NCBI RefSeq assembly: GCF_003721245.1
Contig: NZ_RIZG01000001.1
Location: forward strand, 62,001-126,000
Length of the DNA stretch: 64,000 bases
Direction of reading: 5' to 3'
Source: Marinomonas hwangdonensis
GTDB taxonomy: Bacteria; Pseudomonadota; Gammaproteobacteria; Pseudomonadales; Marinomonadaceae
The position numbers were made by a program, and so were the translations under genes. The notes beneath the pieces were generated by a model, which saw only the letters and a list, made by a program, of their open reading frames with translations, was not told the origin of the DNA and did not search any database. Each line of letters opens with the position of its first letter. Positions within the stretch are counted from its first letter, which is position 1. Positions 19,054 to 43,738 of this stretch are shown piece by piece.

Positions 19054-20880
19054 ATGTGTGGAATAGTGGGTGCCATAGCGCGCCGTAATGTATCAAAAAT
19101 TCTTATCGAAGGGCTTAGCCGTTTAGAATACCGAGGCTATGATTCTTCTGGTGTGGCAATCAACAACGAAGAGGGTGTCTACTCTCACCGTGCCGTGGGT
19201 AAAGTACAGGCACTGAAAGACAAGTTTGAAGCGCAACCCCTTGATGGCAAAATGGGCATCGCTCATACCCGCTGGGCGACCCACGGTAAACCTACAGAAG
19301 CCAATGCTCACCCGCATTTTTCTGGCGATGATCTGGCGTTAGTTCACAACGGTATCATTGAAAATCACGAACCTTTGCGCCGCGAATTGAAAGAAAAAGG
19401 CTATGAATTCAGATCCGAAACGGACACTGAAGTCATTGTCCACCTCATTCACGATGCGATGAAAACACAGCCTGATTTATTAAAAGCCGTGCAAGCCACA
19501 TTAGCTAAATTACACGGTGCCTTTGCGATTGGCGTGGTGCAGAAAGACGACAACGAGCGTTTTATTGCGGCTCGTAAAGGCAGCCCTTTGGTTGTCGGTG
19601 TAGGCATTGAGGAAAACTTTATTGCCTCAGATCAGCTGGCTCTGCTGCATGTGACGGATCAGTTCATCTTTTTAGAAGAAGGCGATATCGCCGAGATCAG
19701 CCGTGACAGCGTATTGATTTATGATGCGAAAGGCGAGTTGCAAGATCGTCCGATCAGTGTGTTTAACCACAACATTGACGCCACAGACAAGGGTGAATTT
19801 CGTCATTACATGATGAAAGAGATCTACGAGCAACCTAAAGTGATTAGCGCTTGCCTAGAAGGTCGTATCAGTGAAAGTAAAGTCCTGACCAGCTGCTTTG
19901 GTGCCGACTCTGCTTTCTTAAAAGAAGTAGAAAATGTCCATATCGTCGCCTGTGGTACCAGTTATCACGCCGGTATGGTGGCAAAATATTGGATCGAAGA
20001 CCTCGCGGGCTTACCGTGCAGCGTGGAAGTGGCCAGTGAATACCGTTATCGCAAAGTCGCTGTACCGAAAAACACCTTGTTTTTGACCTTGTCGCAATCT
20101 GGTGAAACCGCTGATACGCTAGCGGCGTTGCGCATGGCAAAAGAACTGGGCTATTTAACCACATTGGCAATCTGTAACGTGCCATCCAGTACCTTGGTAC
20201 GTGAGTCAGCGCTGACTTTACTGACTAACGCAGGCCCTGAAATTGGCGTGGCATCGACCAAAGCCTTTACCACCCAGCTAACCGCTTTATTGATCACCAG
20301 TGTGGCCATCGCGGTAGAAAATGGATTGTCTGCTGAGCGCGAAAAAAGCATTGTACAAGCCATGCGTTCTCTTCCTGCTTATGTCAATGCTGCCTTGCTT
20401 GAAGATGCGCACATTAAGAAAATTGCAGACCGTTTTGCTAATAAGCACAATGCGTTGTTTTTGGGGCGTGGCACCATGTTCCCCATCGCTCTGGAAGGGT
20501 CTCTTAAACTGAAAGAGATTTCTTACATTCACGCGGAAGCTTACCCTGCTGGCGAGCTAAAGCATGGCCCATTAGCGCTTGTTGATGAAGATATGCCAAT
20601 CATTGCCTTGGTTCCGCACAACGACATGCTGGATAAACTTAAATCGAACTTACAAGAAGTCGCCGCCCGTGGTGGAGAGCTATACGTTTTCGCTGACAAA
20701 GACACGGATCTGCACAACGAAGAGAATATTATCTTCACCGAAGTGCCAAAAGTAGACAGTTTATTAGAACCAATTGTGCATACTATTCCACTGCAGTTAT
20801 TGTCGTACCACGTTGCCGTAGTGAAGGGCACAGACGTAGATCAACCAAGAAATCTAGCAAAAAGTGTTACGGTCGAATAA
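19054..20880 (+). CDS. glmS: GlmS, glutamine--fructose-6-phosphate aminotransferase
   Basis: It converts fructose-6-phosphate and glutamine to glucosamine-6-phosphate, the entry step of amino-sugar synthesis. The 608-aa protein starts MCGIVGAIARR, with catalytic Cys2 of the N-terminal glutaminase, followed by two SIS sugar-isomerase domains (ACGTSYHAGM near 300; LGRGTMFPIALEGSLKLKEISYIHAEAY near 470) and the invariant C-terminus QPRNLAKSVTVE. The 3' end encodes the recognition site for TnsD; a Tn7-like element is inserted 23 nt after the stop codon, so the gene is intact. Confidence 0.98.
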   Translation: MCGIVGAIARRNVSKILIEGLSRLEYRGYDSSGVAINNEEGVYSHRAVGKVQALKDKFEAQPLDGKMGIAHTRWATHGKPTEANAHPHFSGDDLALVHNGIIENHEPLRRELKEKGYEFRSETDTEVIVHLIHDAMKTQPDLLKAVQATLAKLHGAFAIGVVQKDDNERFIAARKGSPLVVGVGIEENFIASDQLALLHVTDQFIFLEEGDIAEISRDSVLIYDAKGELQDRPISVFNHNIDATDKGEFRHYMMKEIYEQPKVISACLEGRISESKVLTSCFGADSAFLKEVENVHIVACGTSYHAGMVAKYWIEDLAGLPCSVEVASEYRYRKVAVPKNTLFLTLSQSGETADTLAALRMAKELGYLTTLAICNVPSSTLVRESALTLLTNAGPEIGVASTKAFTTQLTALLITSVAIAVENGLSAEREKSIVQAMRSLPAYVNAALLEDAHIKKIADRFANKHNALFLGRGTMFPIALEGSLKLKEISYIHAEAYPAGELKHGPLALVDEDMPIIALVPHNDMLDKLKSNLQEVAARGGELYVFADKDTDLHNEENIIFTEVPKVDSLLEPIVHTIPLQLLSYHVAVVKGTDVDQPRNLAKSVTVE

Positions 20881-20903
20881 TGGCATTTACAAAACCGTAA
20901 GGT
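20840..20903 (+). other. attTn7: TnsD target in the glmS 3' end and insertion point
   Basis: Tn7 TnsD binds the conserved last codons of glmS and directs insertion about 25 bp downstream of the stop. Here the transposon terminus (TGTACAG) begins at 20904, 23 nt after the TAA ending at 20880, in the expected orientation with the tnsA-side end nearest glmS. Confidence 0.88.
20899..20903. repeat. Target-site duplication, glmS-proximal copy (AAGGT)
   Basis: AAGGT immediately precedes the element end and recurs at 43660-43664 immediately after the other end. Five base pairs is the Tn7 duplication length. Confidence 0.93.
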
Positions 20904-20968
20904 TGTACAGTGACATTATAGTTTGATAAAAGACATTATAGTTTGATATTTTACAATAATGTTTGATA
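20904..20968 (+). repeat. Tn7-type R end with three abutting TnsB-binding repeats
   Basis: Copies of GACATTATAGTTTGATA occur at 20912-20928 and 20932-20948, and a variant (TACAATAATGTTTGATA) at 20952-20968: an exact 20-bp period. Closely packed sites next to tnsA match the R end of Tn7. The terminal bases are TGTACAGT. Confidence 0.9.
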
Positions 20969-20992
20969 TTTTTTTAGGCCTTCTGCTATGCT
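20963..20992 (+). promoter_or_regulatory. Possible tnsA operon promoter inside the R end
   Basis: TTGATA (20963-20968), the tail of the third TnsB site, is followed after 18 bp by TATGCT (20987-20992). If used, TnsB bound at the end would occlude the -35 box, giving autorepression as proposed for Tn7. This is a by-eye match only. Confidence 0.4.
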
Positions 20993-21014
20993 CAAAGAGT
21001 AAGCAGGAGGCCTA
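20975..21014 (+). promoter_or_regulatory. Leader palindrome covering the tnsA ribosome-binding site
   Basis: TAGGCCTTCTGCT (20975-20987) pairs with AGCAGGAGGCCTA (21002-21014) with one G-T pair over a 14-nt loop. The 3' arm contains the tnsA Shine-Dalgarno AGGAGG, 6 nt before ATG 21017. As RNA the hairpin would mask the site; as DNA it could be a dimer operator. The same structure with compensatory changes is found in the relict element at 43695-43731. Confidence 0.75.
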
Positions 21015-21016
21015 AA

Positions 21017-21835
21017 ATGTTAGATTCTGAGAAATTAGTTGATCCTCAAGATGAGAAGAAGTTAAAAACCAGAGGGATTGGTTCAGGGGAAGACTACGAG
21101 CCCTTTATAAAAGTTCACGAAATAAGTAGTACTGGTGAGAGCTATCGCATCCGAGGTCGAAACACATCTAGAGCTCATCATCTTTTATCTCGTCTTGAAT
21201 TTTCTGCTTTCCTTGTCTTTGACCGCTTCCATCTTACCTACGACATCAAAGAGCAATTTCCTCTACCTGTAGCTGATACTTTGAGTATTTGTTCTCGTTT
21301 GGGAATTAAGCACCCCCAAATGCGCAACAAATTAAAAGTCGTTACCACAGACTTAGTTGTGGAGCTGAAAGGCAAACCATCTATTGCTATTGCTGTTAAA
21401 TACGCCAGCGATTTAGACAATGCGCGTACGATAGACAAACTTCAAATCGAAAAGCTGTATTGGGAAGAACTTGGTTATGAATGGAAACTTTTCACTGATC
21501 AAGAGATTCCAGCGATCGTAAAAGAGAATCTTGAATGGCTTCATGCAGCCAGCCAGAATTCACATGACCTATACGGTGAGTTGTCTTTAGAAGATATTTC
21601 GACAGTCATTAATCGGTTATCAGGCTCAGAGAAGAAGCTTGCTACAGTTTGTGCTGCTATGGATGACCTATACGAATGCAGTGCCGGCTTTCATATTGGT
21701 GTGATTCGTAATGCTGCTGCTGCAAATTTGATTGATGTTCCTTTAGATATTGTATTTAGGAATTGGCGTGCAACGGATGTGTCTATCGTTCTAGACCTAG
21801 ATTCATTTAAAACTGGATTGTCTGATGTATCTTAA
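21017..21835 (+). CDS. tnsA: TnsA, Tn7-like transposase endonuclease subunit
   Basis: TnsA cuts the 5' strands at the transposon ends while TnsB cuts the 3' strands, giving cut-and-paste movement. The 272-aa length equals Tn7 TnsA (273). The restriction-enzyme-like catalytic residues align as Glu61, Asp112 (TTDLVV) and Lys128 (AVKYA); the Gln two residues before the catalytic Lys in Tn7 is Ala here. The C-terminal part (LYWEELGYEWKLFTDQEIP) fits the winged-helix region that contacts TnsC. Its 3' end overlaps tnsB by 11 nt. Expression is likely governed by the R-end sites and the leader palindrome. Confidence 0.95.
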   Translation: MLDSEKLVDPQDEKKLKTRGIGSGEDYEPFIKVHEISSTGESYRIRGRNTSRAHHLLSRLEFSAFLVFDRFHLTYDIKEQFPLPVADTLSICSRLGIKHPQMRNKLKVVTTDLVVELKGKPSIAIAVKYASDLDNARTIDKLQIEKLYWEELGYEWKLFTDQEIPAIVKENLEWLHAASQNSHDLYGELSLEDISTVINRLSGSEKKLATVCAAMDDLYECSAGFHIGVIRNAAAANLIDVPLDIVFRNWRATDVSIVLDLDSFKTGLSDVS

Positions 21836-23885
21836 TAAAGTATTTCTTGACCATCACTTGGACCATCCAACCCATGTCCGAATTGTTTATGAACATGTCG
21901 ATTTCTTAATGCTTATCGATATACACGATGAAAAAGCGTGGCCATATCGCGTAAATCTAGATGAGTTCGAAAGTTTGTCACTAGAAGCCGTACCAGATCC
22001 AATTTTGTTGGCCACCCCCGAAGCAGGCTCTAAAGCTGAAGAGATAAGAGATCGGGCTTATCGATCCGTAGCTTTATTGTTAACGGACTATTTTGCCTTA
22101 TTTGATAAAAAGCTGAGGAATCAGAAGATTAAGTCAGTTTTAGAAGCAACGGATGAGTCTAGGCTGTATGTGACTCGACAATTGCGTCGATATTGGCAGA
22201 GAGGGCTTTCTCCTGACGCCCTTGCTCCAGACTACACAAAATGCGGTGCTCCTGGACAAAACCGACTAGCAATTCGAAAAACAGGGAGTAAACGCACAGT
22301 ATCCCATGGAGAGGGACTTGCTATTACTGATGAGATAGCAAGTCTTTTCAAGTTGGCTATTGAAGGCTTCTATTTAGTTAATAATGATGTTGACCTAAAA
22401 GGGGCTAGGACAAAGGCGAATGGCTTTATTAGGTCAAAGTACCCTAAAATAAAAAAAGAAGATTTACCCACTTATAGGCAGTTCCGATACTACTACAACA
22501 AACACTATGCAAAGCCTCTTGTTGTTCAAGCTCGTACACCATCTATTGAATATGCAAAAGATGTTACACCTAGCCACAGCACTTCCACCACAAATAACTT
22601 TGGACCAGGGGCTCGTTATGAGATCGATGCGACCATAGCTGACTTGCACCTTGTTTCAGGCCATGACCCAGACCGAATCGTAGGCCGCCCAATCGTATAT
22701 AAAGTCAAAGATGTGTTTAGTCGTATGACTGTTGGCTTGTATGTTGGGTTAGAAAATCCTTCTTGGGCAACCGCATCGATCGCCCTCGCGCACGCGTTCT
22801 GTGACAAAGTTGAGTACTGTCGTAAATTCGGTGTTGAGATTACTGAAAGTGATTGGCCAAGTATTGGGACCCCTGCAACGATTACCGCTGATCGAGGAGA
22901 GTTGCTTGGTAAACACGGAGATATCTTAGTTAACCGATTTGGTATCACTTTATCGAATACCCGAGCATATCGCGGTGATGATAAAGGCATAGTCGAAAAA
23001 TCATTTCATATGATGCATGTAGATATTCTTCCTTATGTGAAAGGGAAGGTCGAACCTGTAAATGGAAAGAAAAAAGCGGGGAAACGAACAGAGCTATCAG
23101 CGAACCTAACGCTTTATGATTTCACGAAAATGGTGATCATCTCTGAAATCAACCGCAATACATCCACCCCATTAGAGGGCTACGACTTTGAATCTGATAT
23201 GCCCGCAGATTTGGCTGCAATACCTGTAAGGCTATGGCATTGGGGCGTGAAAAATAGAACGGGTGTTTTGAGAGAAGTAGATCCAAAATTCACCCATGTG
23301 AACATGTTACCCCATAGCAAAGCTACGATATCTCCTTCAGGCATATGTTTTAAGGGCATGTATTATACCTGTGCAGAAGCAGTTGAACTGGGCTGGTTTC
23401 ATAAAAATAGATCAGTGCCTCGTCCAAAAAGCATAGAGGTAGCTTACGATCCTCTGAACACCAATGTTCTATATGTGAGACCAGACAATAAGTTCGATAG
23501 TGTATGGGAATGCACATTACAGAGTCGAAGCCGAAGATATCAAGATATGAGCTTAGTTGAAGCAATGTCAATTCAATCTGAGGCGAGATCAACATATTCT
23601 GAAGCTCAACAAGAAGCCGATTATCAAGCACCAGATCTTCAAAATGAGCTTGAGATGATTGCCCAAGTTGCAGAAAAGAGACAAAAGTCTTCGGATTTAT
23701 CTAACAGCTCGCAGCGACTAAGTGGAATTCGTAACAATCGACAGCAAGAAAAAGAGTCAGAACGCCAGAAAAATAGAGAGTCCGCTAAGCCGCCTAAGAA
23801 GAAGGAGGCAGCGACAGTTACTTCTATCCATTCCGGTAAACAAGTTGAACAGGGGTTCGACTATCCAGATTTGGATGATTTTTAA
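21825..23885 (+). CDS. tnsB: TnsB, DDE transposase of the Tn7-like element
   Basis: TnsB binds the repeats in both ends and performs 3'-strand cleavage and joining. The 686-aa protein (702 in Tn7) has an N-terminal helix-turn-helix region and an RNase H-fold core with Asp268 (RYEIDATIAD), Asp356 (ITADRG) and Glu391 (KGIVEKSFH) as the DDE triad, each offset by the same five residues from Tn7 TnsB. The C-terminal about 90 residues are polar and basic, the part that contacts TnsC. The start ATG lies within the end of tnsA. Confidence 0.96.
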   Translation: MYLNKVFLDHHLDHPTHVRIVYEHVDFLMLIDIHDEKAWPYRVNLDEFESLSLEAVPDPILLATPEAGSKAEEIRDRAYRSVALLLTDYFALFDKKLRNQKIKSVLEATDESRLYVTRQLRRYWQRGLSPDALAPDYTKCGAPGQNRLAIRKTGSKRTVSHGEGLAITDEIASLFKLAIEGFYLVNNDVDLKGARTKANGFIRSKYPKIKKEDLPTYRQFRYYYNKHYAKPLVVQARTPSIEYAKDVTPSHSTSTTNNFGPGARYEIDATIADLHLVSGHDPDRIVGRPIVYKVKDVFSRMTVGLYVGLENPSWATASIALAHAFCDKVEYCRKFGVEITESDWPSIGTPATITADRGELLGKHGDILVNRFGITLSNTRAYRGDDKGIVEKSFHMMHVDILPYVKGKVEPVNGKKKAGKRTELSANLTLYDFTKMVIISEINRNTSTPLEGYDFESDMPADLAAIPVRLWHWGVKNRTGVLREVDPKFTHVNMLPHSKATISPSGICFKGMYYTCAEAVELGWFHKNRSVPRPKSIEVAYDPLNTNVLYVRPDNKFDSVWECTLQSRSRRYQDMSLVEAMSIQSEARSTYSEAQQEADYQAPDLQNELEMIAQVAEKRQKSSDLSNSSQRLSGIRNNRQQEKESERQKNRESAKPPKKKEAATVTSIHSGKQVEQGFDYPDLDDF

Positions 23886-23896
23886 GGGATAATCAC

Positions 23897-25504: not shown

Positions 25505-28500
25505 ATGGCCTTCAATACCAATAAATTTAATGAAGATAGTCGGGTAAAAATCCCTGCAATTCTTCATCTAATGCGTCTAGGCTACCAATACCTATCACTT
25601 AAAGGGCAAAGCTGGGATCTAGACACCAATATCTTCCCTGACGTATTCAAAACGGCTATCGGTAAAATTAACCCTGGTATTGAAGATGCTGAAGCCGGTC
25701 GTTTGTTGGAAGATGTCAAACTATTACTTGATAACGAAGACTTAGGCAAAGCCTTCTTTGAGCGCCTGTCAGAGCGTTCAAATACCAAGCTGATCGACTT
25801 TGAAAACTTTAATAACAATGCCTTCCATGTTGTCACAGAGTTAACGTGTCAAAACGGAGATGAAGAGTTTCGCCCCGATATCACACTGCTTATCAATGGT
25901 ATGCCGCTGGTGTTTATTGAGGTGAAAAAGCCCAATAACCGAGAAGGCATTCTGGCCGAGCGAGACCGCATCAACAAACGCTTCCAAAACCCTAAGTTCA
26001 AGCGTTTTGCCAATATCACCCAGTTTATGATTTTCTCCAATAACATGGAGTACGACGACGGCGATCCAGAACCTGTACAAGGAGCCTTCTATGCCAGTAG
26101 TTCTTACCATAAGCCGGTATTTAACTATTTCCGCGAAGAAGAAATCTTAAACTTAACCGCCTTGCTGAAGCCGGTATCGGATGATGATGAGCTAAAAGTC
26201 TTAAAAGACAACAATCTGGAAGTGATCCGCAGTAACCCAGAGTTCCAAACTAACAAGCAGCCCGAGCGTCCAACCAACCGCATTTGTACATCTTTACTCA
26301 GCCGTGAACGCTTAGCCTTTATTTTGCGTTACGCCTTAGCGTATGTGTCCGAGTCAGATGGTCTACAAAAGCACATCATGCGTTACCCGCAGTTGTTTGC
26401 CACCAAAGCTATTGAACAAAAGCTTAGCGAAGGCGTTAAAAAAGGCATAATTTGGCACACCCAAGGCAGTGGTAAAACCGCACTAACGTTTTATAACGTA
26501 CGCTTTTTAACCGACTACTTCCAAAAGCAGCAAGTCATCCCTAAGTTTTATTTTATTGTTGACCGCTTAGACTTACTACAACAAGCGCAGCGCGAATTTA
26601 CCGCCCGTGGTTTGATAGTTTACATCGTCAACTCGCGAGAAGATTTTGCTCGCGACATCAAAGCTACGCAGGTGATCCATAACCATTCTGGCAAGCCAGA
26701 AATTACCGTGGTAAACATTCAAAAATTTCAAGACGACCCAGATGTGGTCAGCACTAAAGACTACAACGTCGCGATCCAGCGCGTTTATTTTCTGGACGAA
26801 GTACACCGCAGTTATAACCCTAAGGGCAGCTTCTTAGCTAACCTAAGCCAGTCAGACAGCAATGCCATCAAAATTGGCCTAACCGGCACTCCGCTACTGG
26901 GTGACGACTACAACTCACGCGTTTTGTTTGGCGACTACATTCACAAGTACTACTACAACGCGTCCATTGCCGACGGCTACACCTTGCGGCTCATTCGTGA
27001 GGAGATCAGCACCCAATACAAAATTGAACTGCAAAAAGCCCTCGAAGAAGCCGAAGTGAAAATGGGCGATGTCGATCGCAAACTCATTTATGCCCACCCA
27101 AGCTTTGTTGAGCCCATGCTGACTTACATCGTAAACGACTTTGAAAAAAGCCGTGGCGCATTAAACGATACAACCATTGGTGGCATGGTCATTTGCGACA
27201 GCTCAGACCAAGCCAAGCAGATGTTTGACATTTTTAATGGCGTTTATGCCGATGCACCTATTCTGCCGCAAGCATCCAATACAAATAGCCGAGTACTCGA
27301 GGTCGCCGAGCCTGCGCCAACCAGTTATGCAGAGTCTGTTAAACAAGCACAAAAGGTAAAAAACGCTGCTCTGATCCTGCATGACATCGGCAGCAAAGAA
27401 GAACGTAAAAACTGGGTAGAAGACTTCAAAGCAGGCAAAATTGACTTTTTGTTTGTGTATAACATGCTGCTCACCGGTTTTGATGCCAAACGCCTGAAAA
27501 AGCTCTACCTTGGTCGGGTGATCCGCAAACACAATTTGCTTCAAGCCCTCACGCGAGTGAACCGTACTTACAAAGATTTTCGCTATGGCTATGTGGTGGA
27601 TTTTGCCGATATTCGTAAAGAATTCGATGCCACTAACAAAGCTTATTTCGACGAACTACAGTCGGAGCTTGGCGATGAGATGGAGCACTACTCACAGCTG
27701 TTTAAATCGCAGGAAGAGATCAAACAAGAGATTGAGCACATCAAAGACGTACTGTTCCGCTTTGATACCGACAACATGGAAGAGTTCTGTAATCAGATCA
27801 GCCAGATACAAGACCGCGATACTGTACTGGCGCTAAAAAAAGCCTTAGCCGATGCGCGCAGCTTGTATAATCTTATTCGTTTGCAGGGCGAGTATGACTT
27901 TCTCGATGAGCTGGATTTTGCCAAGCTCAACATACTGTATCGCGAAACCAGCAACCATCTGGATTTACTTAACCTTAAAAACGACTTAGAAAGTGGCCAA
28001 GACACCAGTAACCTACTCAATCGCGCCTTAGAAGACGTGATCTTCAAGTTTGTAAAAATCGGCGAAGAAGAACTGGTACTGGCCGACAAGCTAAAAAACA
28101 CCCTGCGCCAAACCCGGGAAGCGCTGGCCAGCAATTTTGACCAGCAAGACCCGAAGTTTACCAGCTTAAAAGAAGAGCTAGAGCGTTTGTTTAAGAAGAA
28201 AAACTTAAGCGAAGTGACCCAAGATGAAATGAATGCCAATATCGACGCGCTCAATAAAATTCACGATCGCGTCAAAGAGCTTAACCGTCAAAACAACCAA
28301 CTGCGCCAAAAGTACTTAGGCGATGCCAAATACACCCGTATTCACAAACGCTTGCAAGAACGCCAGCAAAGCCAAAGCGACATCAGCGAGTCAGAGCGTA
28401 AAATTTTTGAGGCACTGGCGGGCGTTAAACAAGATGCCGACGAGCAAGTGCTCAACAACAGCCAAGTGCTAGATAACGAAAGCTACTTTGAACGCCAAAT

Positions 28501-28633
28501 GATGCCGCTGGTAATTGGCCGCTTTATGAAAGAACAGCAGATTAAACTCAACGCCGACGCCTCACGTTACATTAACCACCTTGTCGTCGCAGAATACTTA
28601 AAAGAATTTAATACTGGCAGCCAAGCGTGGTAA
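25505..28633 (+). CDS. hsdR: Type I restriction enzyme R subunit HsdR
   Basis: The motor-nuclease of a type I restriction-modification complex: it translocates DNA from an unmodified recognition site and cuts at a distance. The 1042-aa protein has an N-terminal PD-(D/E)xK nuclease with Asp125 (FRPDITLL), Glu139 and Lys141 (FIEVKK), then an SF2 helicase with Walker A TQGSGKT at 319-325, the DEAD-like box VYFLDEVHRS, motif III GLTGTPLLG and motif VI LLQALTRVNRTY, and a long helical C-terminus for contact with HsdM. An AAGGA Shine-Dalgarno precedes the ATG, 12 nt after tnsC. Confidence 0.95.
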   Translation: MAFNTNKFNEDSRVKIPAILHLMRLGYQYLSLKGQSWDLDTNIFPDVFKTAIGKINPGIEDAEAGRLLEDVKLLLDNEDLGKAFFERLSERSNTKLIDFENFNNNAFHVVTELTCQNGDEEFRPDITLLINGMPLVFIEVKKPNNREGILAERDRINKRFQNPKFKRFANITQFMIFSNNMEYDDGDPEPVQGAFYASSSYHKPVFNYFREEEILNLTALLKPVSDDDELKVLKDNNLEVIRSNPEFQTNKQPERPTNRICTSLLSRERLAFILRYALAYVSESDGLQKHIMRYPQLFATKAIEQKLSEGVKKGIIWHTQGSGKTALTFYNVRFLTDYFQKQQVIPKFYFIVDRLDLLQQAQREFTARGLIVYIVNSREDFARDIKATQVIHNHSGKPEITVVNIQKFQDDPDVVSTKDYNVAIQRVYFLDEVHRSYNPKGSFLANLSQSDSNAIKIGLTGTPLLGDDYNSRVLFGDYIHKYYYNASIADGYTLRLIREEISTQYKIELQKALEEAEVKMGDVDRKLIYAHPSFVEPMLTYIVNDFEKSRGALNDTTIGGMVICDSSDQAKQMFDIFNGVYADAPILPQASNTNSRVLEVAEPAPTSYAESVKQAQKVKNAALILHDIGSKEERKNWVEDFKAGKIDFLFVYNMLLTGFDAKRLKKLYLGRVIRKHNLLQALTRVNRTYKDFRYGYVVDFADIRKEFDATNKAYFDELQSELGDEMEHYSQLFKSQEEIKQEIEHIKDVLFRFDTDNMEEFCNQISQIQDRDTVLALKKALADARSLYNLIRLQGEYDFLDELDFAKLNILYRETSNHLDLLNLKNDLESGQDTSNLLNRALEDVIFKFVKIGEEELVLADKLKNTLRQTREALASNFDQQDPKFTSLKEELERLFKKKNLSEVTQDEMNANIDALNKIHDRVKELNRQNNQLRQKYLGDAKYTRIHKRLQERQQSQSDISESERKIFEALAGVKQDADEQVLNNSQVLDNESYFERQMMPLVIGRFMKEQQIKLNADASRYINHLVVAEYLKEFNTGSQAW

Positions 28634-28667
28634 TGCGAGTAAAACTTATTAGGAAGTAAACACTAAA

Positions 28668-30302
28668 ATGGTTGAATTAGAATTTCAGCAAAAAACTAAA
28701 ACCCTGATTGATAGTTTAAAAAGTATCTGTGCTAACTATGGGTTAGGTAACGACGGTAACGAATTTAAAATCATAACCCAAATTTTCTTGTACAAGTTTT
28801 TAAACGATAAGTTTGCCTTTGAAGCGAAAAAGCTCGACGACACAATAGCTAAAGCCGATAAGTGGGAAGAAGCGCTAGTAGCCATGAGCGAAGACGACCT
28901 CGACATGCTACAACTGCAAATGGGCGGCGATACGGCACGGCTAAAACCGCAGCACTTTATAAGCTACCTGTTTAGCCAACAAAACGCGCCTGACTTTGCC
29001 AAACTGTTTGACGATACCCTCATTGATATCGCCATCACCAATAACGATGTCTTTGCGGTAAAAACCGATAGCGGCGAGAAGACAAAGCTTTTTGATCGGG
29101 TGAGTGAATTCATAACCGATACGTCAAAACGTGATAATTTTTGCAAAGCCATTATCAACAAGCTGGTCGAGTTCAGTTTTGAGCGTATCTTCACCCAAAA
29201 ATTCGACTTCTATGCCACTATCTTTGAGTATCTAATCAAAGACTACAACATCAATTCAGGCGGCAAATACGCCGAGTATTTCACTCCGCATGCGGTGGCG
29301 CGTATTATGGCCGAAATTTTAGTGCCACAAGACCAGCGCGGCACTGTGCGCAATGTTAGTTGTTACGATCCATCGGCAGGTTCGGGCACTTTATTAATGA
29401 ACGTGGCGCACGCCATTGGTGAAAACCGCTGTAGCATTTACACCCAAGATATTTCGCAAAAATCATCCAACCTGCTGCGTTTAAACCTGATTTTAAATAA
29501 CTTGGTGCACTCCATCCCCAATGTGATCCAAGGTAATACGGTATTACACCCCTACCACAAAGACGGCAAAGAGTTAAAACGCTTTGATTACATCGTTTCC
29601 AACCCGCCGTTTAAGCTGAATTTCAGCGATTTTAGGGATGAGCTCGACAGTAATGAGAACAAAGAACGATTTTTTGCTGGTATACCCACAGTACCTAAGA
29701 AAGAGAAGGATAAGATGAAAATTTATACTCTCTTTTTACAGCACATAATAACATCTTTGAAATCAACTGGAAAAGCAGCGGTTGTCGTGCCAACGGGCTT
29801 CATTACTGCTAATACAGGAATTGACAATAAAATTCTAAAGCACTTAGTTACAAACAAAATGCTGGCGGGAGTGGTCTCTATGCCATCTAATATTTTCGCT
29901 ACCACAGGCACTAACGTATCCATCCTATTTATCGATGCTAGCAACGATGGCGATGTGGTTTTGGTCGATGCTTCAAACTTAGGCGAAAAGGTCAAAGATG
30001 GCAAAAACCAAAAAACCGTATTAACCGCCGATGAAGAACAAAAAATTATTAATGTGTTTAATGCCAAAGAAACCATCGAAGACTTATCTGTGGCGGTGAG
30101 TTACGACGAAATCGAAGCCAAAAATTACTCGTTGAGTGCAGGCCAGTATTTCGATGTTAAAATCGAATACGTGGATATTACCCCTGAGCAGTTTGCAGAA
30201 AAAATGCATGTAATTACCAGTAACTTAGATAACCTGTTTAACCAGTCTCGTGATTTGGAAACGGAGATTAAAAAACAGTTGGCGGGATTGAAGTATGAAT
30301 AA
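28668..30302 (+). CDS. hsdM: Type I DNA methyltransferase subunit HsdM
   Basis: It methylates adenine in the target specified by HsdS and protects host DNA. The 544-aa protein has an N-terminal helical HsdM domain, SAM-binding motif I DPSAGSGT at 234-241, and catalytic motif IV NPPF at 312-315 (the N6-adenine class), with the phenylalanine-rich KIYTLFLQHI downstream. Base composition changes within the gene: a stretch at about 29640-29930 is clearly more AT-rich than both sides, suggesting past recombination. It overlaps hsdS by 8 nt. Confidence 0.95.
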   Translation: MVELEFQQKTKTLIDSLKSICANYGLGNDGNEFKIITQIFLYKFLNDKFAFEAKKLDDTIAKADKWEEALVAMSEDDLDMLQLQMGGDTARLKPQHFISYLFSQQNAPDFAKLFDDTLIDIAITNNDVFAVKTDSGEKTKLFDRVSEFITDTSKRDNFCKAIINKLVEFSFERIFTQKFDFYATIFEYLIKDYNINSGGKYAEYFTPHAVARIMAEILVPQDQRGTVRNVSCYDPSAGSGTLLMNVAHAIGENRCSIYTQDISQKSSNLLRLNLILNNLVHSIPNVIQGNTVLHPYHKDGKELKRFDYIVSNPPFKLNFSDFRDELDSNENKERFFAGIPTVPKKEKDKMKIYTLFLQHIITSLKSTGKAAVVVPTGFITANTGIDNKILKHLVTNKMLAGVVSMPSNIFATTGTNVSILFIDASNDGDVVLVDASNLGEKVKDGKNQKTVLTADEEQKIINVFNAKETIEDLSVAVSYDEIEAKNYSLSAGQYFDVKIEYVDITPEQFAEKMHVITSNLDNLFNQSRDLETEIKKQLAGLKYE

Positions 30303-31515
30303 ATGGCCCATCACAAGCTTAAAAGGGAAGATCAATATTAAGCATGGATTCCCATTTAAGAGCGAATACTTCTCGGATGAAGCGACACAATTCATTGTAT
30401 TGACGCCAGGAAACTTCTATGAAGAAGGTGGCTTTAAGAGGCAGGCAGGGAAAGAGAAATTTTATACTGGAGATATTCCGGAAGATTACCTACATAAGGC
30501 TGGCGACCTAATTGTCGCAATGACCGAACAAGCAGTAGGGTTGTTAGGCAGTTGTGCCAGAGTTCCAGAATCTGGCATTTACTTGCATAACCAGCGGCTC
30601 GGGCTAGTCACTACAGTTTCGAAAAAGATACTGAAGGATTACATATACCACCTATTCAAGACTAAGACTGTACGAGAGCAAATTCGACTAACTTCGTCTG
30701 GCTCAAAGGTTAAGCACACATCTCCCGAAAGGATATATGACGTAAGGGTTCCTCTCCCAACAGTTTCGGAACAACAGAATATCGTTTCTTTACTTGATAC
30801 GCTCGAAACAAAAATCGAACTCAACAACCGCATCAACACCGAGCTGGAAGCCATGGCTAAAACCCTGTACGACTACTGGTTTGTACAGTTCGACTTCCCC
30901 GACGACTCGCCACAAGGCCAAGGCAAACCCTACAAAACCTCCGGCGGAAAAATGGTCTACAACCCAACCCTAAAGCGCGAAATACCAGCGGGGTGGAGTG
31001 ATGGAATAATTGCAGACGTCATAGGGAAAGTTCCACAAGCCACGAAAGTTTTAGCAAAAGAGTTTCAAGATAATGGAAAAGTCCCTGTAATTGACCAAAG
31101 TCAGTCATATATTTGCGGTTTTACAGATGATGAAACTGCTACGATAAAGCCAGAGTCTGCACATGTGATTTTTGGAGATCATACTAGGGCAGTTAAGCTA
31201 GTGAATTTCGACTACGCAAGAGGGGCGGACGGTACACAGGTTCTAGTTGCGAAATCGGACAAGGTACCTAGTTACCTCTTATACCAAATTGTCTCTGATA
31301 TCGACCTTTCCAGTTATGGGTATGCGCGCCACTATAAGTTTTTAAAAGAATCGAAATGCGTCATTCCTAGGGCTGAAGTTTCTCAGCGTTATCAAAACAC
31401 TGTAAATCATTGGCATGAGAAAATCAGAGATAACATTTTTCAAAATTATGAGTTAGAGCGACTACGAGACTGGCTTCTCCCGATGCTGATGAACGGACAA
31501 GTGACTGTGAAATAA
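30295..31515 (+). CDS. hsdS: Type I specificity subunit HsdS
   Basis: It sets the DNA recognition sequence of the complex through two target-recognition domains. The 406-aa protein shows the usual two-fold plan: TRD1 (about 1-155), a central conserved helix with QQNIVSLLDTLETKIELNNRINTELEAMAKTLYDYWF, TRD2 (about 230-375) and a matching C-terminal helix NIFQNYELERLRDWLLPMLMNGQVTVK. The two TRDs are AT-rich while the conserved spacer is GC-richer, a composition pattern expected from exchange of TRDs between alleles. Confidence 0.95.
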   Translation: MNKWPITSLKGKINIKHGFPFKSEYFSDEATQFIVLTPGNFYEEGGFKRQAGKEKFYTGDIPEDYLHKAGDLIVAMTEQAVGLLGSCARVPESGIYLHNQRLGLVTTVSKKILKDYIYHLFKTKTVREQIRLTSSGSKVKHTSPERIYDVRVPLPTVSEQQNIVSLLDTLETKIELNNRINTELEAMAKTLYDYWFVQFDFPDDSPQGQGKPYKTSGGKMVYNPTLKREIPAGWSDGIIADVIGKVPQATKVLAKEFQDNGKVPVIDQSQSYICGFTDDETATIKPESAHVIFGDHTRAVKLVNFDYARGADGTQVLVAKSDKVPSYLLYQIVSDIDLSSYGYARHYKFLKESKCVIPRAEVSQRYQNTVNHWHEKIRDNIFQNYELERLRDWLLPMLMNGQVTVK

Positions 31516-31530
31516 TTTAGGGATGGCGAT

Positions 31531-33666
31531 ATGGACATTGAAATTAAAGACTGTAACAACATCACGATGGCCAAAGTGGCTATCGTGCCGAATAAGTTGA
31601 ATATTAAGTTTGCCCCGAATGGAACCGGTAAAAGTACGATTTCTAAGGCCATACAATGTGCTGTAACAGAAGACGAACAAGCGCTTTCTGAACTTTTACC
31701 GTTTAAATTTCGCAACGAAAATTTGAATAACACTAAACCTGAAGTGCTTGGTATTGAAAATATCAAAAGTGTTCTCTGTTTTAACGAAGAGTACGTGAAT
31801 AAGTTTACTTTTAAGCCTGAAGAGCTAGTTAGCAATAGTTTTGATATTTTTATACGTACAGATTCTTATCAAGAAAAAGAGCGAGATATAGAAACATTTA
31901 CCAGTTTAGTTAAGCAACAATTTGCGAACAACTCAGAACTAGAAGCGCTTATATCAAATTTAAATGAACTGTCACGGGCATTTAAAGTTACAGCTAGTGG
32001 TGGTTTGGCCAAAACATCGACCGGTGCGAAGGCGCTCTCTAGTTCAAATAAAATTGACCATATTCCTGAAGGGTTACAGCCTTATCAACCCTTTATTCAA
32101 AGTTCGAATTGTGTAAACTGGATTGATTGGCAAGCGAAAGGGCACAAGGAATTTTCTGATTTATCAGATTCTTGTCCATTTTGTACAAGTGATTCGACAA
32201 GTAGGAAAGAGCAAATAGCAAATGTAAGTAAAGAATACGATAAAAATTTAATTAAAAATCTTGTGAGTGTTATTGACGTTATCAACAAACTTGGTGAATA
32301 TTTTTCAGATGTCTCAAAGAACAAGCTAGATGTCATCAAATCGTTAAAAAATGGCCTCGAAAAAGAGCACGAAACCTTCATAGTAACAGTGAAATCACAG
32401 ATCGACGATCTGGTGGCAAAACTAGAAAAGCTCAAAGGGTTAACTGGGTTTGATTTTTATGAAGGCGAAAATGTCGGGCAAAAATTGCTAGACTATAAAA
32501 TAGATCTTCAGTTTTTTGATACCTTAAATTCGATTAAAACCAACGAAACAATAACCGTTATTAACCAGTCAATTGATGATCTGATAAAACAGGCTGGCCC
32601 GTTACAAGGCAAAATTAATCAACAGCGAACAGAGATACAACGACTTATTAAAAAGCATCAAACGGATATTAATGCTTTTCTTACTTTTGCAGGGTATCGC
32701 TATCAAGTTGCAATTGTTGGTGAAGGTGAACAGGCGCAGTTAAAATTACGACATATCGATAATTCAACTCATCTTAGCGGTGGAAGTCAGCATTTAAGTT
32801 TTGGTGAACGCAATGCCTTCTCAATAGTGCTTTTCATGTATGAATGCCTAGCTAAAAAGCCTGATTTAGTGATACTTGACGACCCGATATCGTCTTTTGA
32901 TAAAAATAAAAAATATGCAATTTTAGAGGTGTTGTTTCGCCGAGATGCTAGCGATTGTTTAAAAAGCAAGACAGTCTTGATGCTTACCCATGATGTTGAG
33001 CCTATCATTGATACTCTAAGGTCGGTACGTGGGCAGTTTAGTAACCAAGTTTTTGCGTCGTATTTACGCTTGAGAAGCGGAGAAATTACCGAGCAATCCA
33101 TTTCTAGTGATGATATTAAAACCTTTATCCAGATCTGTGAAAATTTATTTTCATCTACGCAAGACCCAATTATCAAGCTGATATATCTACGCCGAAGATA
33201 TGAAGTTTTAGGCGATCTTGAGAGTGGATACCAAATCCTATCAAATTTGTTTAAAAAACGAGCTGCTCCAGAAGATTTTCGAATCCCTAGAAATGAAGAA
33301 GGACTAAATACGCCGTTATCAACTATTGATTTAAGTGCTGGTATTAATGATATACAACGCTTTATTTCTGAGCTTCCAGTTGATTATCCATCCTTAGTTG
33401 CTCTGTTCAGTAATAACGAGAAAATAAATGAGCTGTACCTGCAAAGTAATAATGGCTATGAGAAATTGCAACTGATCAGAATCTTGTTAGATATCGATAT
33501 GGTTAATAATTCAGTGATTAGAAAATTCATCAACGAAACTTACCATATTGAAAATGAGTTTATATTTCAGCTTGACCCAACACGCTTCGACCTTATTCCC
33601 GAATATGTTGTGAATGAATGTGACAAGATACTAGTAGAATTTAGAGAGTTAAACTCGAATGGCTAA
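31531..33666 (+). CDS. SMC/RloC-like ABC ATPase with zinc-hook motif, linked to type I RM
   Basis: A 711-aa AAA_13-type ATPase. Walker A is APNGTGKST at 28-36; the ABC signature SGGSQHLSFGERNAF is at about 416-430, Walker B DLVILDDPISSFD at 445-457 and a switch His in LTHDVE near 487. The middle is helical and includes a single CPFC at 215-218, as in Rad50-type zinc hooks. A C-terminal domain of about 220 residues follows (with RKFINETYHIENEFIFQLDP). Size, CxxC hook and position directly after hsdS resemble RloC, the RM-linked anticodon nuclease, but I could not find its nuclease triad, so the effector activity is open. It is the last gene of the tnsA-led operon. Confidence 0.7.
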   Translation: MDIEIKDCNNITMAKVAIVPNKLNIKFAPNGTGKSTISKAIQCAVTEDEQALSELLPFKFRNENLNNTKPEVLGIENIKSVLCFNEEYVNKFTFKPEELVSNSFDIFIRTDSYQEKERDIETFTSLVKQQFANNSELEALISNLNELSRAFKVTASGGLAKTSTGAKALSSSNKIDHIPEGLQPYQPFIQSSNCVNWIDWQAKGHKEFSDLSDSCPFCTSDSTSRKEQIANVSKEYDKNLIKNLVSVIDVINKLGEYFSDVSKNKLDVIKSLKNGLEKEHETFIVTVKSQIDDLVAKLEKLKGLTGFDFYEGENVGQKLLDYKIDLQFFDTLNSIKTNETITVINQSIDDLIKQAGPLQGKINQQRTEIQRLIKKHQTDINAFLTFAGYRYQVAIVGEGEQAQLKLRHIDNSTHLSGGSQHLSFGERNAFSIVLFMYECLAKKPDLVILDDPISSFDKNKKYAILEVLFRRDASDCLKSKTVLMLTHDVEPIIDTLRSVRGQFSNQVFASYLRLRSGEITEQSISSDDIKTFIQICENLFSSTQDPIIKLIYLRRRYEVLGDLESGYQILSNLFKKRAAPEDFRIPRNEEGLNTPLSTIDLSAGINDIQRFISELPVDYPSLVALFSNNEKINELYLQSNNGYEKLQLIRILLDIDMVNNSVIRKFINETYHIENEFIFQLDPTRFDLIPEYVVNECDKILVEFRELNSNG

Positions 33667-34026: not shown

Positions 34027-35391
34027 TTATAGATGATAGGAAATAATCCTCGATTTGAATGATGACATCGTAAACATAGTCAAAGAGGCACATCCAACAA
34101 ACTCTTGGTCATCGTTTAGAGTGATATCACCAAGGCTAATGTCAGATTCAAGTGATATTTTATGCAAATCACTATTTTGATTAATATTAGTAAAGTTTGA
34201 TGTATCCAAGCTATCAAGTAGTCTCTCTGTTTTTTGGTAGTTGTAGGACCCAGGGATGGTTTCGTTTAGCCGCTCTGCGTAATCCAATAAATTGGGCTCA
34301 GCTAGGATAAACATATACCCAATTATCGTCTGGCTGTTGGTCATTCTGAGAACGCGTCCAAGGATTTGGCGAAAGTAAAGCTCTGTTGTGACATCTGTAA
34401 GGTTGCAACAAACTTGCAGTCTTGGAATATCAGTACCTTCGCTGATCATGGCGATACTGATAATCCATTCACTGGTATCTTCGCGAAAGCGATTAATAAG
34501 TTCAGGTGAGTCATCCAGCCTATAGGAAACTAACGTGGCTTCTTTACCAAAGTGACCATATAAAATCGATTGGATTTGTAAGGCGTGTTGGTATGACGAA
34601 GCGACAATAAGACCACCAGAATTCGGGCTGTTAGTTCTAAGCTTGTCGAGCTTCTGAATGCTAAGAGAAAGCATGTAGGTGATGACTTCAGGCTGCTTTA
34701 AAATCATACGGTAACTGACATCACCACTTTCAAGTAACTCTGAAATGTTTTGGTACGTTTTACTTTCGTGACCTTTGCGAACCATGACTTGGTCTGTATC
34801 AATCGCTGTAATAAAGGGCACGCGACAGACGCTGTCATTTATGGCCTCATTGAGACCGTAAGAAAAATCACATTGAATGTTGCCTTCGGGATCAGAGTAG
34901 CGCGCTAAAGGAATGGGCAAGGTATCTGTTCGCCATGGTGTTCCAGTTAACGATAATGTGTAAGTAGCTAGCTTTTGAATTGTCGAAAGTAGTTGTATTC
35001 CCCAAGTATTTGAAGGTGACTCGCCATCACCTGCGCAATGATGAATTTCATCAAAGATCACAAGTACACGACTTAGGCTTAGGTTGCTAAGCAGTTCATT
35101 GATATTTGCCATGGAATGATAAGTGAGAGACGTCCCAAGTGCACCTAGCTGACCATTAAATGGTCTTTTTAGAGTGTGCCTGAATGTTTTTTGGATGCTA
35201 TGGCAGACAACCTTAGAAGGTGAAAAGCAGATAACATAGTCGACCTTGCGCTCATCGAGGAGGGCTTTGGCAACGTAACTTGCCATGATAGTTTTACCTG
35301 AGCCTGGGGTGGCAAGGACTAGAGCGTCTGGTTGGTGCTGATATCGTTCTAAAACTTGTTTTATACAGCGTTTTTGCCACTCTCTTAACAT
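34027..35391 (-). CDS. Superfamily II DEAD/DEAH-type helicase, probable defence cargo
   Basis: A 454-aa ATP-dependent nucleic-acid helicase or translocase. Visible motifs: Q-like REWQKRCIKQVLERY, motif I ATPGSGKT near 28-35, motif II FDEIHHC (DEIH box), motif III SLTGTPWRTD, motif V GTDIPRLQVCCNLT and motif VI QILGRVLRMT. No nuclease domain is evident, and the C-terminal about 80 residues are unassigned. It overlaps the preceding 179-aa gene by 7 nt, so the two are translated together, from a promoter shared divergently with an XRE regulator. The target and biochemical role are unknown. Confidence 0.82.
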   Translation of the reverse strand: MLREWQKRCIKQVLERYQHQPDALVLATPGSGKTIMASYVAKALLDERKVDYVICFSPSKVVCHSIQKTFRHTLKRPFNGQLGALGTSLTYHSMANINELLSNLSLSRVLVIFDEIHHCAGDGESPSNTWGIQLLSTIQKLATYTLSLTGTPWRTDTLPIPLARYSDPEGNIQCDFSYGLNEAINDSVCRVPFITAIDTDQVMVRKGHESKTYQNISELLESGDVSYRMILKQPEVITYMLSLSIQKLDKLRTNSPNSGGLIVASSYQHALQIQSILYGHFGKEATLVSYRLDDSPELINRFREDTSEWIISIAMISEGTDIPRLQVCCNLTDVTTELYFRQILGRVLRMTNSQTIIGYMFILAEPNLLDYAERLNETIPGSYNYQKTERLLDSLDTSNFTNINQNSDLHKISLESDISLGDITLNDDQEFVGCASLTMFTMSSFKSRIISYHL

Positions 35392-35924
35392 GCCTTATCA
35401 CTCTTCATATTCGTTTCTTGTATCACTTTTTTTAGTGCGTTTAAGCGTCCATAAAGTTGAGTCGACTGTTCTTTTGTTTGATGTAATAGCTTTTGAATGA
35501 TCTGGCGATTAGCTGGATACTTAGTCAGAAAATCCCTGTAAGCCTCAATTTCACCTAATATCATTTTTAATTCTGTGCTCGTTTTTGCTTCTTCAATTTT
35601 AAGTAGAGTCTCTTGTTGTCTGACTTCGTTTTCAGTATGGCAGACATCATTCGGTTTTGAGTCGCATGTTTTTTGATCAAGTAACATAAGCAGTGAATCG
35701 CTGAAATGATAGGTTCGAGCGTTGCGTTCCCCGCTGGCCGTTATTAGGTTTTTTGTCGTCAGTATATTAACGTTCTTTGCGATAAATCTGGTTGATTGGA
35801 CCAAGTTCAATTCGGTTGTACTCGTGGCCAACTGGATAAGTTCCTTTCGCTTGATGCTGGTTCCTTCCACACGTTGTAAGAGTTCTTTGAACGCTTTATT
35901 CAAAGAAAATGGTTTAGATGTCAT
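35385..35924 (-). CDS. Uncharacterised partner of the helicase (winged-helix plus coiled coil)
   Basis: A 179-aa protein that I cannot place in a named family. The first about 85 residues look like a winged helix (KRKELIQLATSTTELNLVQSTRFIAKNVNILTTKNLITASGERNARTYHFSD), and the rest (about 100-170) is charged and helical, probably a coiled coil. It is the first gene of the two-gene helicase operon, and its start overlaps the regulatory region containing two palindromes. A DNA- or partner-binding adaptor for the helicase is a reasonable guess, no more. Confidence 0.65.
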   Translation of the reverse strand: MTSKPFSLNKAFKELLQRVEGTSIKRKELIQLATSTTELNLVQSTRFIAKNVNILTTKNLITASGERNARTYHFSDSLLMLLDQKTCDSKPNDVCHTENEVRQQETLLKIEEAKTSTELKMILGEIEAYRDFLTKYPANRQIIQKLLHQTKEQSTQLYGRLNALKKVIQETNMKSDKAC

Positions 35925-39948: not shown

Positions 39949-42648
39949 TTGGCAATATTTCCAACATTTGAGTCAGTATTACTTCAGATCGCTAATGTGC
40001 TGAGAACTAGCGGCGACATGAATTCAAAATCTAAGTCAAAGTTTAAAAACGTCGATATGTCGATGGATAACTTGAATGATACTTGGGAGAAGGTCTTAGG
40101 CGATATTGCAGATGCTTTAGAGTTTGATCAAAAGAGTAAACACGACTTGATCAATAATATTTTCTATGATTATCAATCACATAAGGCAATAGAACTAGGT
40201 GTATTTACTTCAAGAGCTTCGCAAAGAAAAGTAGTTTGGCACTACTTAGCAAGGTTTCTAGTGCCAACTCTTGCTCGGCATTCAGTATTTTGGCAAGTGG
40301 AGTCAAGGTTAGACGTAGGCATGCCAGAGGGCAGGTTTTGGTATCTACCGGCTGTTGACTGTCCAATTAGACCAACTCAGCTCCTTTTACCCATTCAACA
40401 AGTTCTAAATTGGTTGATTGACCTTATCGGGGATTCACCTACCTCCATAGCCAACACAATCGTTAAAGGAATGCGAGCTTTTGACAGTACCGATGTAGTC
40501 CTCAAAAACTTATATAACTGGAAAACAGCTAAGAGCACTCCTGAAATATCAAGCATCATTAATACGTTCCCTGATGAAGTTGAAATACACTTTCAAGGAA
40601 GCTTTAAACTTGATGACAAATCTCCGGAATATGAGCAAGCGTTAGCCTTTGTTTACGCAAAAGGTCTGCCAGCATCAGCACTACAGCATGAAATAGCCAT
40701 TAGTGAAGAGATGTTGGAAAGGATCTTGTGCAAGAAATGTTCTATTGAAGAACAAGATATATTTGTTCGTAAAATAGCTTTACGTTATCAAGCCCCAAGC
40801 ATAAGGACTGTGCGATTACGGCTACTTTTAGCAAGGGCTACTCAAGAAGGATATGAGAAGTTAGTTAAGTTTTTGACTCCAAATGTAGATAAGCAATGTC
40901 TTGATCTCAACACAAACAAGGCTTTACAGCTGATCCAGCTGTATAACGATGTTTATAATCGTACATATGATGCTCATCTTATGAAAAGAGGAGCGGGTGA
41001 AGCAGAAGAGAACAAGTATTTTACAGAGCAACTTCCTACGTATCTTCGCTATGATTTACTGCGCTATGTCTGTTATGACACAAATCAGCCTATTGAGATA
41101 ACCACTCACAAATTAAACAATATCTTCAGACAAGATGACGATGGTGATCTTGAGAACATCATCCCTACTACAAATGGTGATAGACAGCGGATGATGTCTG
41201 CCGTTGTAGAAGAGTTGAAAAGCTCCGAGGGCTATCATGCTCAATTGGCAGAGCTCTTAGATGCCTTGAAACGAAATAAAGCGCCTTTCAGAAATATTCA
41301 GGCAATTGATGACTTTGATATGATTTATGGTGCTTTAGAGCATGGAGAAACAAATCACAGAGTAAGAGCGCTGCTGTTTGACAGGTTAAAGGAGCTAGAG
41401 GCTAATCCTGACCAGTCAATGAAACGCATAATTGCAGAGTTGGAAGAGCACTTGTTGGTAAAAACTTTTACCGCTTCAACGGAAGAAAAAGTATCAATAT
41501 TGCTTGCTGAAGCTAAGGCATCTGAGGTTTTAGAGTATTCAAAAGCTCGTATTCTTCAGCTTGAAGGCCTCCACCTACTTGGGCAAAACAAATTTCTTGA
41601 AGCCGAGAAAGGTTTTAACTTAGCTATAGATGAGTGTAAAAAGTACAGTTTTGGCAAGTTAAGGGGTAGCTTAGCCAAAGATGCCTTTTCATTAGCTGTA
41701 GCAAATCAAAAGCTGATTCCTAACAATCACGAGAAATACTATAGGGATATGTACTATTGGGGAGGTATCAATTCAGAACTATACTCACTAGATAAAGTTA
41801 ATATCCATGATGTCTCTAGGGATTTACATGAATATTTCTGGGCAACTCTATATAAATGCTACCCAGATTATGAACCTAAGTTTGCTTCTTGCCGCACTGA
41901 ATTTGAAAAGTTTTCTAAAAACATAGCCAGTTGCATCAAGGCTCAAAAGCCGATTTCAACAATTCTAAGTAAATATAGCGGGTTAAAAAATAAGCAACTA
42001 AAGTACCCGCAAGCAGACAGTATTGTGTTGTTGATAATGAAAATCAGCTATGACATGAGCTCTAAACTAAGAAGCTTCTCTCAAGCTTTGCCTGTTGAAG
42101 CCATGAATGAGCTAAACCGTGCTAATGATGGATTAATAGGTGCTGTTAGAGAAATCATTCAGGAATGGCCTGAAATTGTGGATGTATCTGATTTCAAACA
42201 ACAGACACCGTTGATGATTGCTGCTCACAATCAAGATTACAAAACAGTTGAATTGCTGCTAAATGCAAAAGCAAATCCTAACTTGAGAGACTTAAAAGGT
42301 AGGACCGCTCTTCACTCAGCGGCAGCAAGTCGTTGTTTGCTGTCAGCTAAACTACTTCTAGAGCATGGTATAGATGAAACTATATTAACAATTGAGGGGG
42401 CAACTCCACTGCATACAGCTACTCGCATGGGAGAGCTTTCTATAGTTAAACTTCTAATTGAAAAGTGTCCCGAACTTCTTCAGGTCTCTGATTTAAAAGG
42501 GATAACTCCATCAGAACTGGCTGCTACCATTGCAGAAGACAGAGTGCACTATGAGCTATTACGGCGATATCTTGAGTCAGAAAAAAGAACGGTTGTTAGT
42601 CATGAGGTTTACAAGCAAGTAGCGGCATATTATTTAAGTGTTCATTAG
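39949..42648 (+). CDS. Large ankyrin-repeat protein of unknown function
   Basis: An 899-aa soluble protein. Residues 1-740 have no domain I can name; they include Trp/Tyr-rich blocks near 90-150 (KVVWHYLARFLVPTLARHSVFWQ, GRFWYLPAVD) and a helical TPR-like stretch near 515-580 (AKASEVLEYSKARILQLEGLHLLGQNKFLEAEKGF). Residues about 746-864 hold three to four ankyrin repeats (TPLMIAAHNQDYKTVELLL; RTALHSAAASRCLLSAKLLLEHG; TPLHTATRMGELSIVKLLIEK). The start is TTG 39949 after GGTAGGG; ATG 40018 is a fallback. A small membrane protein follows 30 nt later. The two-gene layout within a defence-bearing transposon suggests, but does not prove, a phage-response role. Confidence 0.75.
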   Translation: MAIFPTFESVLLQIANVLRTSGDMNSKSKSKFKNVDMSMDNLNDTWEKVLGDIADALEFDQKSKHDLINNIFYDYQSHKAIELGVFTSRASQRKVVWHYLARFLVPTLARHSVFWQVESRLDVGMPEGRFWYLPAVDCPIRPTQLLLPIQQVLNWLIDLIGDSPTSIANTIVKGMRAFDSTDVVLKNLYNWKTAKSTPEISSIINTFPDEVEIHFQGSFKLDDKSPEYEQALAFVYAKGLPASALQHEIAISEEMLERILCKKCSIEEQDIFVRKIALRYQAPSIRTVRLRLLLARATQEGYEKLVKFLTPNVDKQCLDLNTNKALQLIQLYNDVYNRTYDAHLMKRGAGEAEENKYFTEQLPTYLRYDLLRYVCYDTNQPIEITTHKLNNIFRQDDDGDLENIIPTTNGDRQRMMSAVVEELKSSEGYHAQLAELLDALKRNKAPFRNIQAIDDFDMIYGALEHGETNHRVRALLFDRLKELEANPDQSMKRIIAELEEHLLVKTFTASTEEKVSILLAEAKASEVLEYSKARILQLEGLHLLGQNKFLEAEKGFNLAIDECKKYSFGKLRGSLAKDAFSLAVANQKLIPNNHEKYYRDMYYWGGINSELYSLDKVNIHDVSRDLHEYFWATLYKCYPDYEPKFASCRTEFEKFSKNIASCIKAQKPISTILSKYSGLKNKQLKYPQADSIVLLIMKISYDMSSKLRSFSQALPVEAMNELNRANDGLIGAVREIIQEWPEIVDVSDFKQQTPLMIAAHNQDYKTVELLLNAKANPNLRDLKGRTALHSAAASRCLLSAKLLLEHGIDETILTIEGATPLHTATRMGELSIVKLLIEKCPELLQVSDLKGITPSELAATIAEDRVHYELLRRYLESEKRTVVSHEVYKQVAAYYLSVH

Positions 42649-43659: not shown

Positions 43660-43664
43660 AAGGT
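43660..43664. repeat. Target-site duplication, distal copy (AAGGT)
   Basis: AAGGT follows the element terminus directly and is identical to 20899-20903. Confidence 0.93.
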
Positions 43665-43731: not shown

Positions 43732-43738
43732 ATTATAT

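Follow-up and report, generated by a model that had tools for sequence, protein, structure and literature searches.

A hairpin over the tnsA start of Tn7-like elements as a probable lock against read-through from glmS

The DNA considered here, called the window throughout, is a 64,000-nucleotide (nt) stretch of Marinomonas hwangdonensis (contig NZ_RIZG01000001.1, positions 62,001 to 126,000, forward strand). It holds a Tn7-like element (20904-43659, plus strand) behind the gene glmS, and a palindrome occupies the leader of the element's tnsA gene (21017-21835, plus strand). We consider that this palindrome probably acts as a read-through lock on tnsA, which would be closed to RNA entering from the neighbouring gene and open to RNA made from the element's own promoter. 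This reading builds on the hairpin itself, its covariation, its strand asymmetry, the recurrence of its layout, the upstream position of glmS and the computed accessibility of the tnsA start. From this anatomy it extends to a mechanism in which RNA would start within the hairpin, glmS transcription would run into the element, long transcripts would go untranslated and the element would benefit.

The first-pass annotation, made from the letters of the window, had proposed a palindrome over the tnsA ribosome-binding site, and this was confirmed. Flanked by the third TnsB-site-like repeat on one side and the tnsA ATG (21017) on the other, the palindrome spans 20973-21016; its 5′ arm (20973-20987, plus strand) pairs with a 3′ arm (21002-21016, plus strand) that contains AGGAGG at 21005-21010, and the stem includes one T·G pair. 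The computed fold of the 84-nt leader has an energy of -35.1 kcal/mol (z -7.13), a value as low as which was reached by none of 200 shuffles. Among the leaders of 40 window genes, taken as the 60 nt before the ATG of open reading frames of at least 150 amino acids (aa), that of tnsA has the lowest z score (-6.1); the second lowest (-3.3) belongs to the tnsC leader (23837-23896), whose fold likewise exceeds chance. By computation, then, the palindrome is a stable RNA hairpin covering the tnsA ribosome site, and the earlier claim that AGGAGG is hidden in the mRNA holds for the long RNA. A search of 20700-21300 against Rfam matched no known family, the best score over the leader being 23.4 bits for a microRNA model with a gathering cut-off of 80.7. 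An intrinsic terminator was also considered for the window and rejected, with 0 terminator-like sites found and a hairpin that lacks a T-run.

A relict right end of an older element (43667-43742, plus strand), located beyond the far end of the Tn7-like element, has a palindrome of its own (hairpin 43695-43733), together with TATCCT (43708-43713) and a decayed tnsA start. Its stem joins 43695-43706 to 43722-43733, with an inner CTATC/GATAG. The four pair changes that had been claimed between the two palindromes (A-T to T-A, C-G to T-A, T-A to C-G, and T·G to C-G) are all present on alignment A2, which was made with MAFFT and not fitted to the structure. Furthermore, the two innermost window pairs correspond to one T·G and one C·A in the relict, the outermost T-A has become T·T, and the loop has 3 nt fewer in the relict. 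The relict leader is closest to two sister-clade leaders (L012 and L013), and the comparison is therefore one of two lineages rather than of a parent with its decayed copy. A second relict right end (L022), from a same-genus relative (G018) with an identical TnsA, carries a C·A mismatch in its stem, as expected once selection ends.

Selection on the fold, as had been proposed, was borne out in a larger alignment of 12 distinct window-clade leaders. Both sides have changed in 8 of the 15 pairs, as compared to 3.8 in shuffles, a count that exceeds all 500 shuffles and six controls with slid arms. Likewise, pairing holds in 88.9% of cells, versus 80.6% in shuffles. The covariation score, 0.368 versus 0.210, is reached by 0 of 500 shuffles and falls to at most 0.146 with one arm slid; the shuffle test can be inflated by the relatedness of the leaders, and the slid controls preserve that relatedness, but a structure derived from one sequence tends to beat them.

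To see how far the hairpin extends, TnsA relatives were gathered from genomes and plasmids, the plasmid sample comprising 19 records hand-picked among 60 listed of 499, plus 3 of 20 in another listing; relatives in phage records were absent at an E value of 1e-5. Start codons were set with a hidden Markov model (HMM) and leaders were dereplicated. Of 155 TnsA pieces, 14 were dropped for want of a start codon or an N-terminus (one of these, L031, has a leader with a hairpin by eye), leaving 141. The HMM accepted 74 of the 141 at E ≤1e-60, and removal of 21 that were at least 85% alike gave 53 leaders; the 67 weaker relatives, less 7, gave 60. Within the 60 nt preceding the ATG, 42 of the 53 leaders fold on the sense strand at z ≤-2, as compared to 8 of 51 windows placed upstream, 3 of 53 placed in coding sequence, 0 of 41 leaders of the next gene and 19 of the 60 weaker relatives. 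Arm sequences have little in common between clades by eye, whereas the layout is kept across them: a 5′ arm, a -10-like box within the hairpin, a 3′ arm ending 0-9 nt before the ATG in the 42 hairpin leaders, and the ATG. The same layout occurs in an element on a plasmid of Peribacillus (Bacillota; L115), and L048, one of the 53, shares its leader with a plasmid gene from outside that set that is annotated as Tn7 tnsA (L177). The hairpin layout is thus old and not private to the window element.

The position of the element relative to glmS gives the hairpin its probable meaning. In the window, glmS (19054-20880, plus strand; Pfam SIS and glutamine amidotransferase domains) lies upstream of the element on the same strand and is the presumed source of entering transcription; a glmS 3′ end is found upstream, on the same strand, of 38 of the 53 leaders and within 250 nt in 35. 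Tn7 occupies its chromosomal site in a single orientation, so that glmS transcription faces tnsA. More generally, the usual site of Tn7-type elements is directly behind glmS, in the orientation in which tnsA points away from that gene, and glmS run-on transcripts would therefore enter tnsA. These long transcripts would carry both arms, and in elements of the window type the hairpin would pair the ribosome site and the start region; in a subset of leaders, where a T-run follows the hairpin, it may also terminate transcription. RNA from the element's own promoter, with its -10 box within the hairpin, would begin after the 5′ arm, could not fold and would be translated. The benefit would be a transposase level independent of the neighbour's transcription. 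If true, the lock would explain a leader whose shape is maintained while its sequence is not.

The first alternative is that the hairpin mainly serves the host, as a replacement for the displaced 3′-end hairpin or terminator of glmS that protects or ends its mRNA. Tn7 is said, going by the title of a 1986 paper by Gay et al., to insert into the glmS terminator. Thirty glmS places, with their loci, were compared within the genus, "unoccupied" meaning that no element end was visible to the patterns used. The first 80 nt after the glmS stop fold at z ≤-2 in 15 of 19 unoccupied sites, some of which may hold other elements, and in 0 of 11 occupied ones; insertion thus seems to separate glmS from its native 3′ structure. 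In line with a host role, 12 of the 42 hairpins are followed by a run of at least five T, and a relict behind another glmS gene (L166), which by eye consists of one TnsB-site-like repeat and a hairpin with a T-run, suggests that the hairpin outlived the remainder of the element. However, this role leaves unexplained both the -10 box inside the hairpin and a 3′ arm that ends so close to the ATG; furthermore, the window hairpin has neither a T-run nor a terminator-like site, and a strict terminator test is passed by no more than 3 of the 19 unoccupied sites. A mainly host-serving hairpin is therefore unlikely. The two functions might also be combined in a device general to the Tn7 clade, which would supply the displaced glmS transcript with a new 3′-end hairpin and prevent that transcript from expressing tnsA, with masking of the ribosome site and termination as interchangeable forms; as the promoter lies within the hairpin, RNA initiated by the element itself would alone escape. 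We put this forward tentatively, as possible but short of probable.

The second alternative depends on where tnsA transcription starts. In the window, a consensus scan found a -35-like TTGATA (20963-20968, plus strand; overlapping the third repeat), which together with its -10 box scores 9 of 12, and, after a spacer of 18 nt, TATGCT preceded by TG; this extended -10-like sequence, TGCTATGCT (20984-20992, plus strand), lies in the hairpin and predicts a start near 20999. With the -10 weights used, the best -10-like box falls inside the hairpin in 39 of the 42 leaders, most commonly as TATGCT (13), and a start between the outer arms is predicted for 39 of 42, as compared to 27.0 expected from shuffles. 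The element's own mRNA should therefore lack the 5′ arm. The computed cost of opening the region from -16 to +3 has a median of 18.7 kcal/mol in the long transcript and 5.5 in the own transcript, the long transcript being the costlier in each of the 42 leaders. A Shine-Dalgarno-like stretch was recognised in 22 of the 42 hairpin leaders and is at least 75% paired in 20. Two leaders of a neighbouring TnsA clade (L091 and L092) have, by eye, a -10-like box just before a shorter inverted repeat, where the start could fall after most of the 5′ arm.

If instead the own transcript also started upstream of the 5′ arm, the hairpin would be a brake on all tnsA translation, with AGGAGG hidden in every transcript. 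The scan does find upstream TATTTT boxes with TG, located after two of the repeats; the recurrence of a -10-like box inside hairpins whose arms are otherwise unlike argues against it, and we judge a general brake improbable, a shade more so than the host role. Consequently, the translational brake suggested in the first-pass annotation stands insofar as the fold hides AGGAGG, and is narrowed insofar as RNA initiated upstream of the 5′ arm should be its sole target. A start downstream of that arm, which had been named, together with an absence of repressor binding, as a refutation, is what the scan predicts, and it becomes the key to the mechanism.

The third alternative, also raised in the first-pass annotation, is a DNA operator for a dimeric repressor, to which the two-fold symmetry across a promoter-like sequence lends itself. 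Since a G·U pair is a C·A mismatch on the other strand, a palindrome selected as DNA predicts equal numbers of G·U and A·C. In a stem search that gave every type of mismatch equal weight, the 37 leaders scoring at least 7 contained 26 G·U, 2 A·C and 12 other mismatches, with 18 leaders versus 0 on the two sides, indicating selection on the sense RNA and not on a DNA operator. One possible confound, in which G is kept in the 3′ arm for the ribosome site while T drifts in the 5′ arm, was rejected, as G·U occurs in both orientations (T·G 14, G·T 12). In addition, 44 of the 53 leaders fold more stably as sense RNA than as the complement, and 8 less stably; the difference is -4.4 kcal/mol, of which -1.9 is the shuffled mean attributable to composition, and an excess remains in 39 of 53 (p 4e-6, although, as the leaders are related, all p values given here are indicative). 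Nor is the spacing of half-sites constant: loop and bulge lengths vary, the sister-clade loop is shorter by 3 nt, one leader (L003) has 2 nt extra in one arm, and arms are unlike even between elements with nearly identical TnsB-like repeats. The operator is thus very improbable, while there is good support for the fold, for its conservation and for its sense-strand character. A by-product of chance or base composition is hardly credible, for although leader composition favours sense folding, it leaves unaccounted the excess beyond shuffles, the upstream and coding controls and the covariation.

Several observations nevertheless weigh against a read-through lock. No significant hairpin was found in 11 of the 53 leaders, a number that includes L026, whose start codon is possibly mis-set, L025, at a contig edge, and L105, directly upstream of which an IS26 transposase gene ends. 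In a TnsA tree built from 100 of the 113 leaders' rows (those under 180 aa were left out), the hairpin marks one clade, chosen after the tree was viewed, with 39 of 46 members versus 13 of 54 outside it, and some of the latter folds plausibly arise by chance. The tie between hairpin and glmS adjacency (34 of 39 adjacent versus 27 of 74 others, p 1.5e-7) is confounded with ancestry, both marking mostly that one clade, and was therefore set aside as independent or functional evidence. In 36 of 53 leaders the complement, too, reaches z ≤-2, as expected of any palindrome, and the number of further pair types on A2 does not stand out from shuffles, 218 of 500 of which attain it. With respect to the promoter, RNA could begin within the 5′ arm from the TATTTT at 20967-20972; few -10 boxes score well individually (p ≤0.1 in 11 of 42); the excess of predicted start positions over shuffles is modest; and the best-scoring -10 lies outside the hairpin in L013, L084 and L104, for which the accessibility start was set by hand from the inner box. 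The accessibility gap itself follows in part from removing the 5′ arm, and, with Shine-Dalgarno-like stretches in only 22 of 42 leaders, masking of a ribosome site would be conjectural for the other 20.

The element that carries the hairpin has TGT...ACA ends and is flanked by a 5-bp target-site duplication, AAGGT (20899-20903 on the left, 43660-43664 on the right), both read directly. Its proteins have TnsA (for tnsA itself, PF08722 at 3.9e-16 and PF08721 at 3.7e-9), Mu-transposase C-terminal, TniB/AAA, TnsD and TnsE domains; the gene at 21825-23885 is taken as tnsB from its Mu-transposase C-terminal domain, and the TniB/AAA protein as TnsC. With tnsA, tnsB, tnsC and TnsD behind glmS and the 5-bp duplication, the element belongs to the Tn7-like class. 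Three repeats in a 20-bp register (20912-20928, 20932-20948 and 20953-20968, plus strand), also read directly, are likely TnsB sites by comparison with Tn7. Type I restriction genes hsdR, M and S and a gene for an AAA_13 protein (25505-33666) follow directly 3′ of tnsC on the same strand within the element; AAA_13 takes in PrrC-like anticodon nucleases. The effect of the hairpin on these restriction genes that had been suggested is possible via co-transcription only. Other genes encode a DEAD-box/ResIII-type helicase and a 179-aa protein without a Pfam match at E 0.001 (34027-35924, minus strand), and an 899-aa ankyrin-repeat cargo protein (39949-42648).

Among known systems, the Tn7-like element VchCAST has a palindrome in its right end that, in the accessible part of its description, is suspected to bear on tnsABC transcription; it was tested there for insertion orientation, for which the sequence of one arm mattered and not the symmetry. 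The likeness is one of position and description, and that part of the account holds no fold-back or read-through reading. Apart from this palindrome, no tnsA leader structure was found in the available portions of the open literature, nor did searches of open-licence literature for Tn7 or tnsA yield an account of how Tn7 uncouples its transposase level from glmS transcription, which subscription journals may have. In ISPpu9, according to the accessible part of the report, a 5′-UTR (untranslated region) structure hides the ribosome site and limits transposase translation, and the small RNA Asr9 is proposed to weaken it (PMC8450116); the leader structure over a ribosome site is shared, whereas the read-through logic is absent from what that part describes. 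The 12 hairpins followed by at least five T resemble intrinsic terminators, unlike the window hairpin, which lacks the T-run, and unlike terminators the own start is predicted inside the hairpin.

The closest parallel is the fold-back inhibition of IS10 and IS50, where transcripts from outside alone form a hairpin over the transposase start and the element's own promoter starts after the 5′ arm. The same read-through logic would apply here, with an own start after the 5′ arm predicted in 39 of 42 leaders and a start region computed to be costlier to open in the long transcript in all 42. The differences are the Tn7 family, a promoter box enclosed by the hairpin, an insertion site that is fixed and has an inward-reading neighbour, and a terminator-like form in some members.
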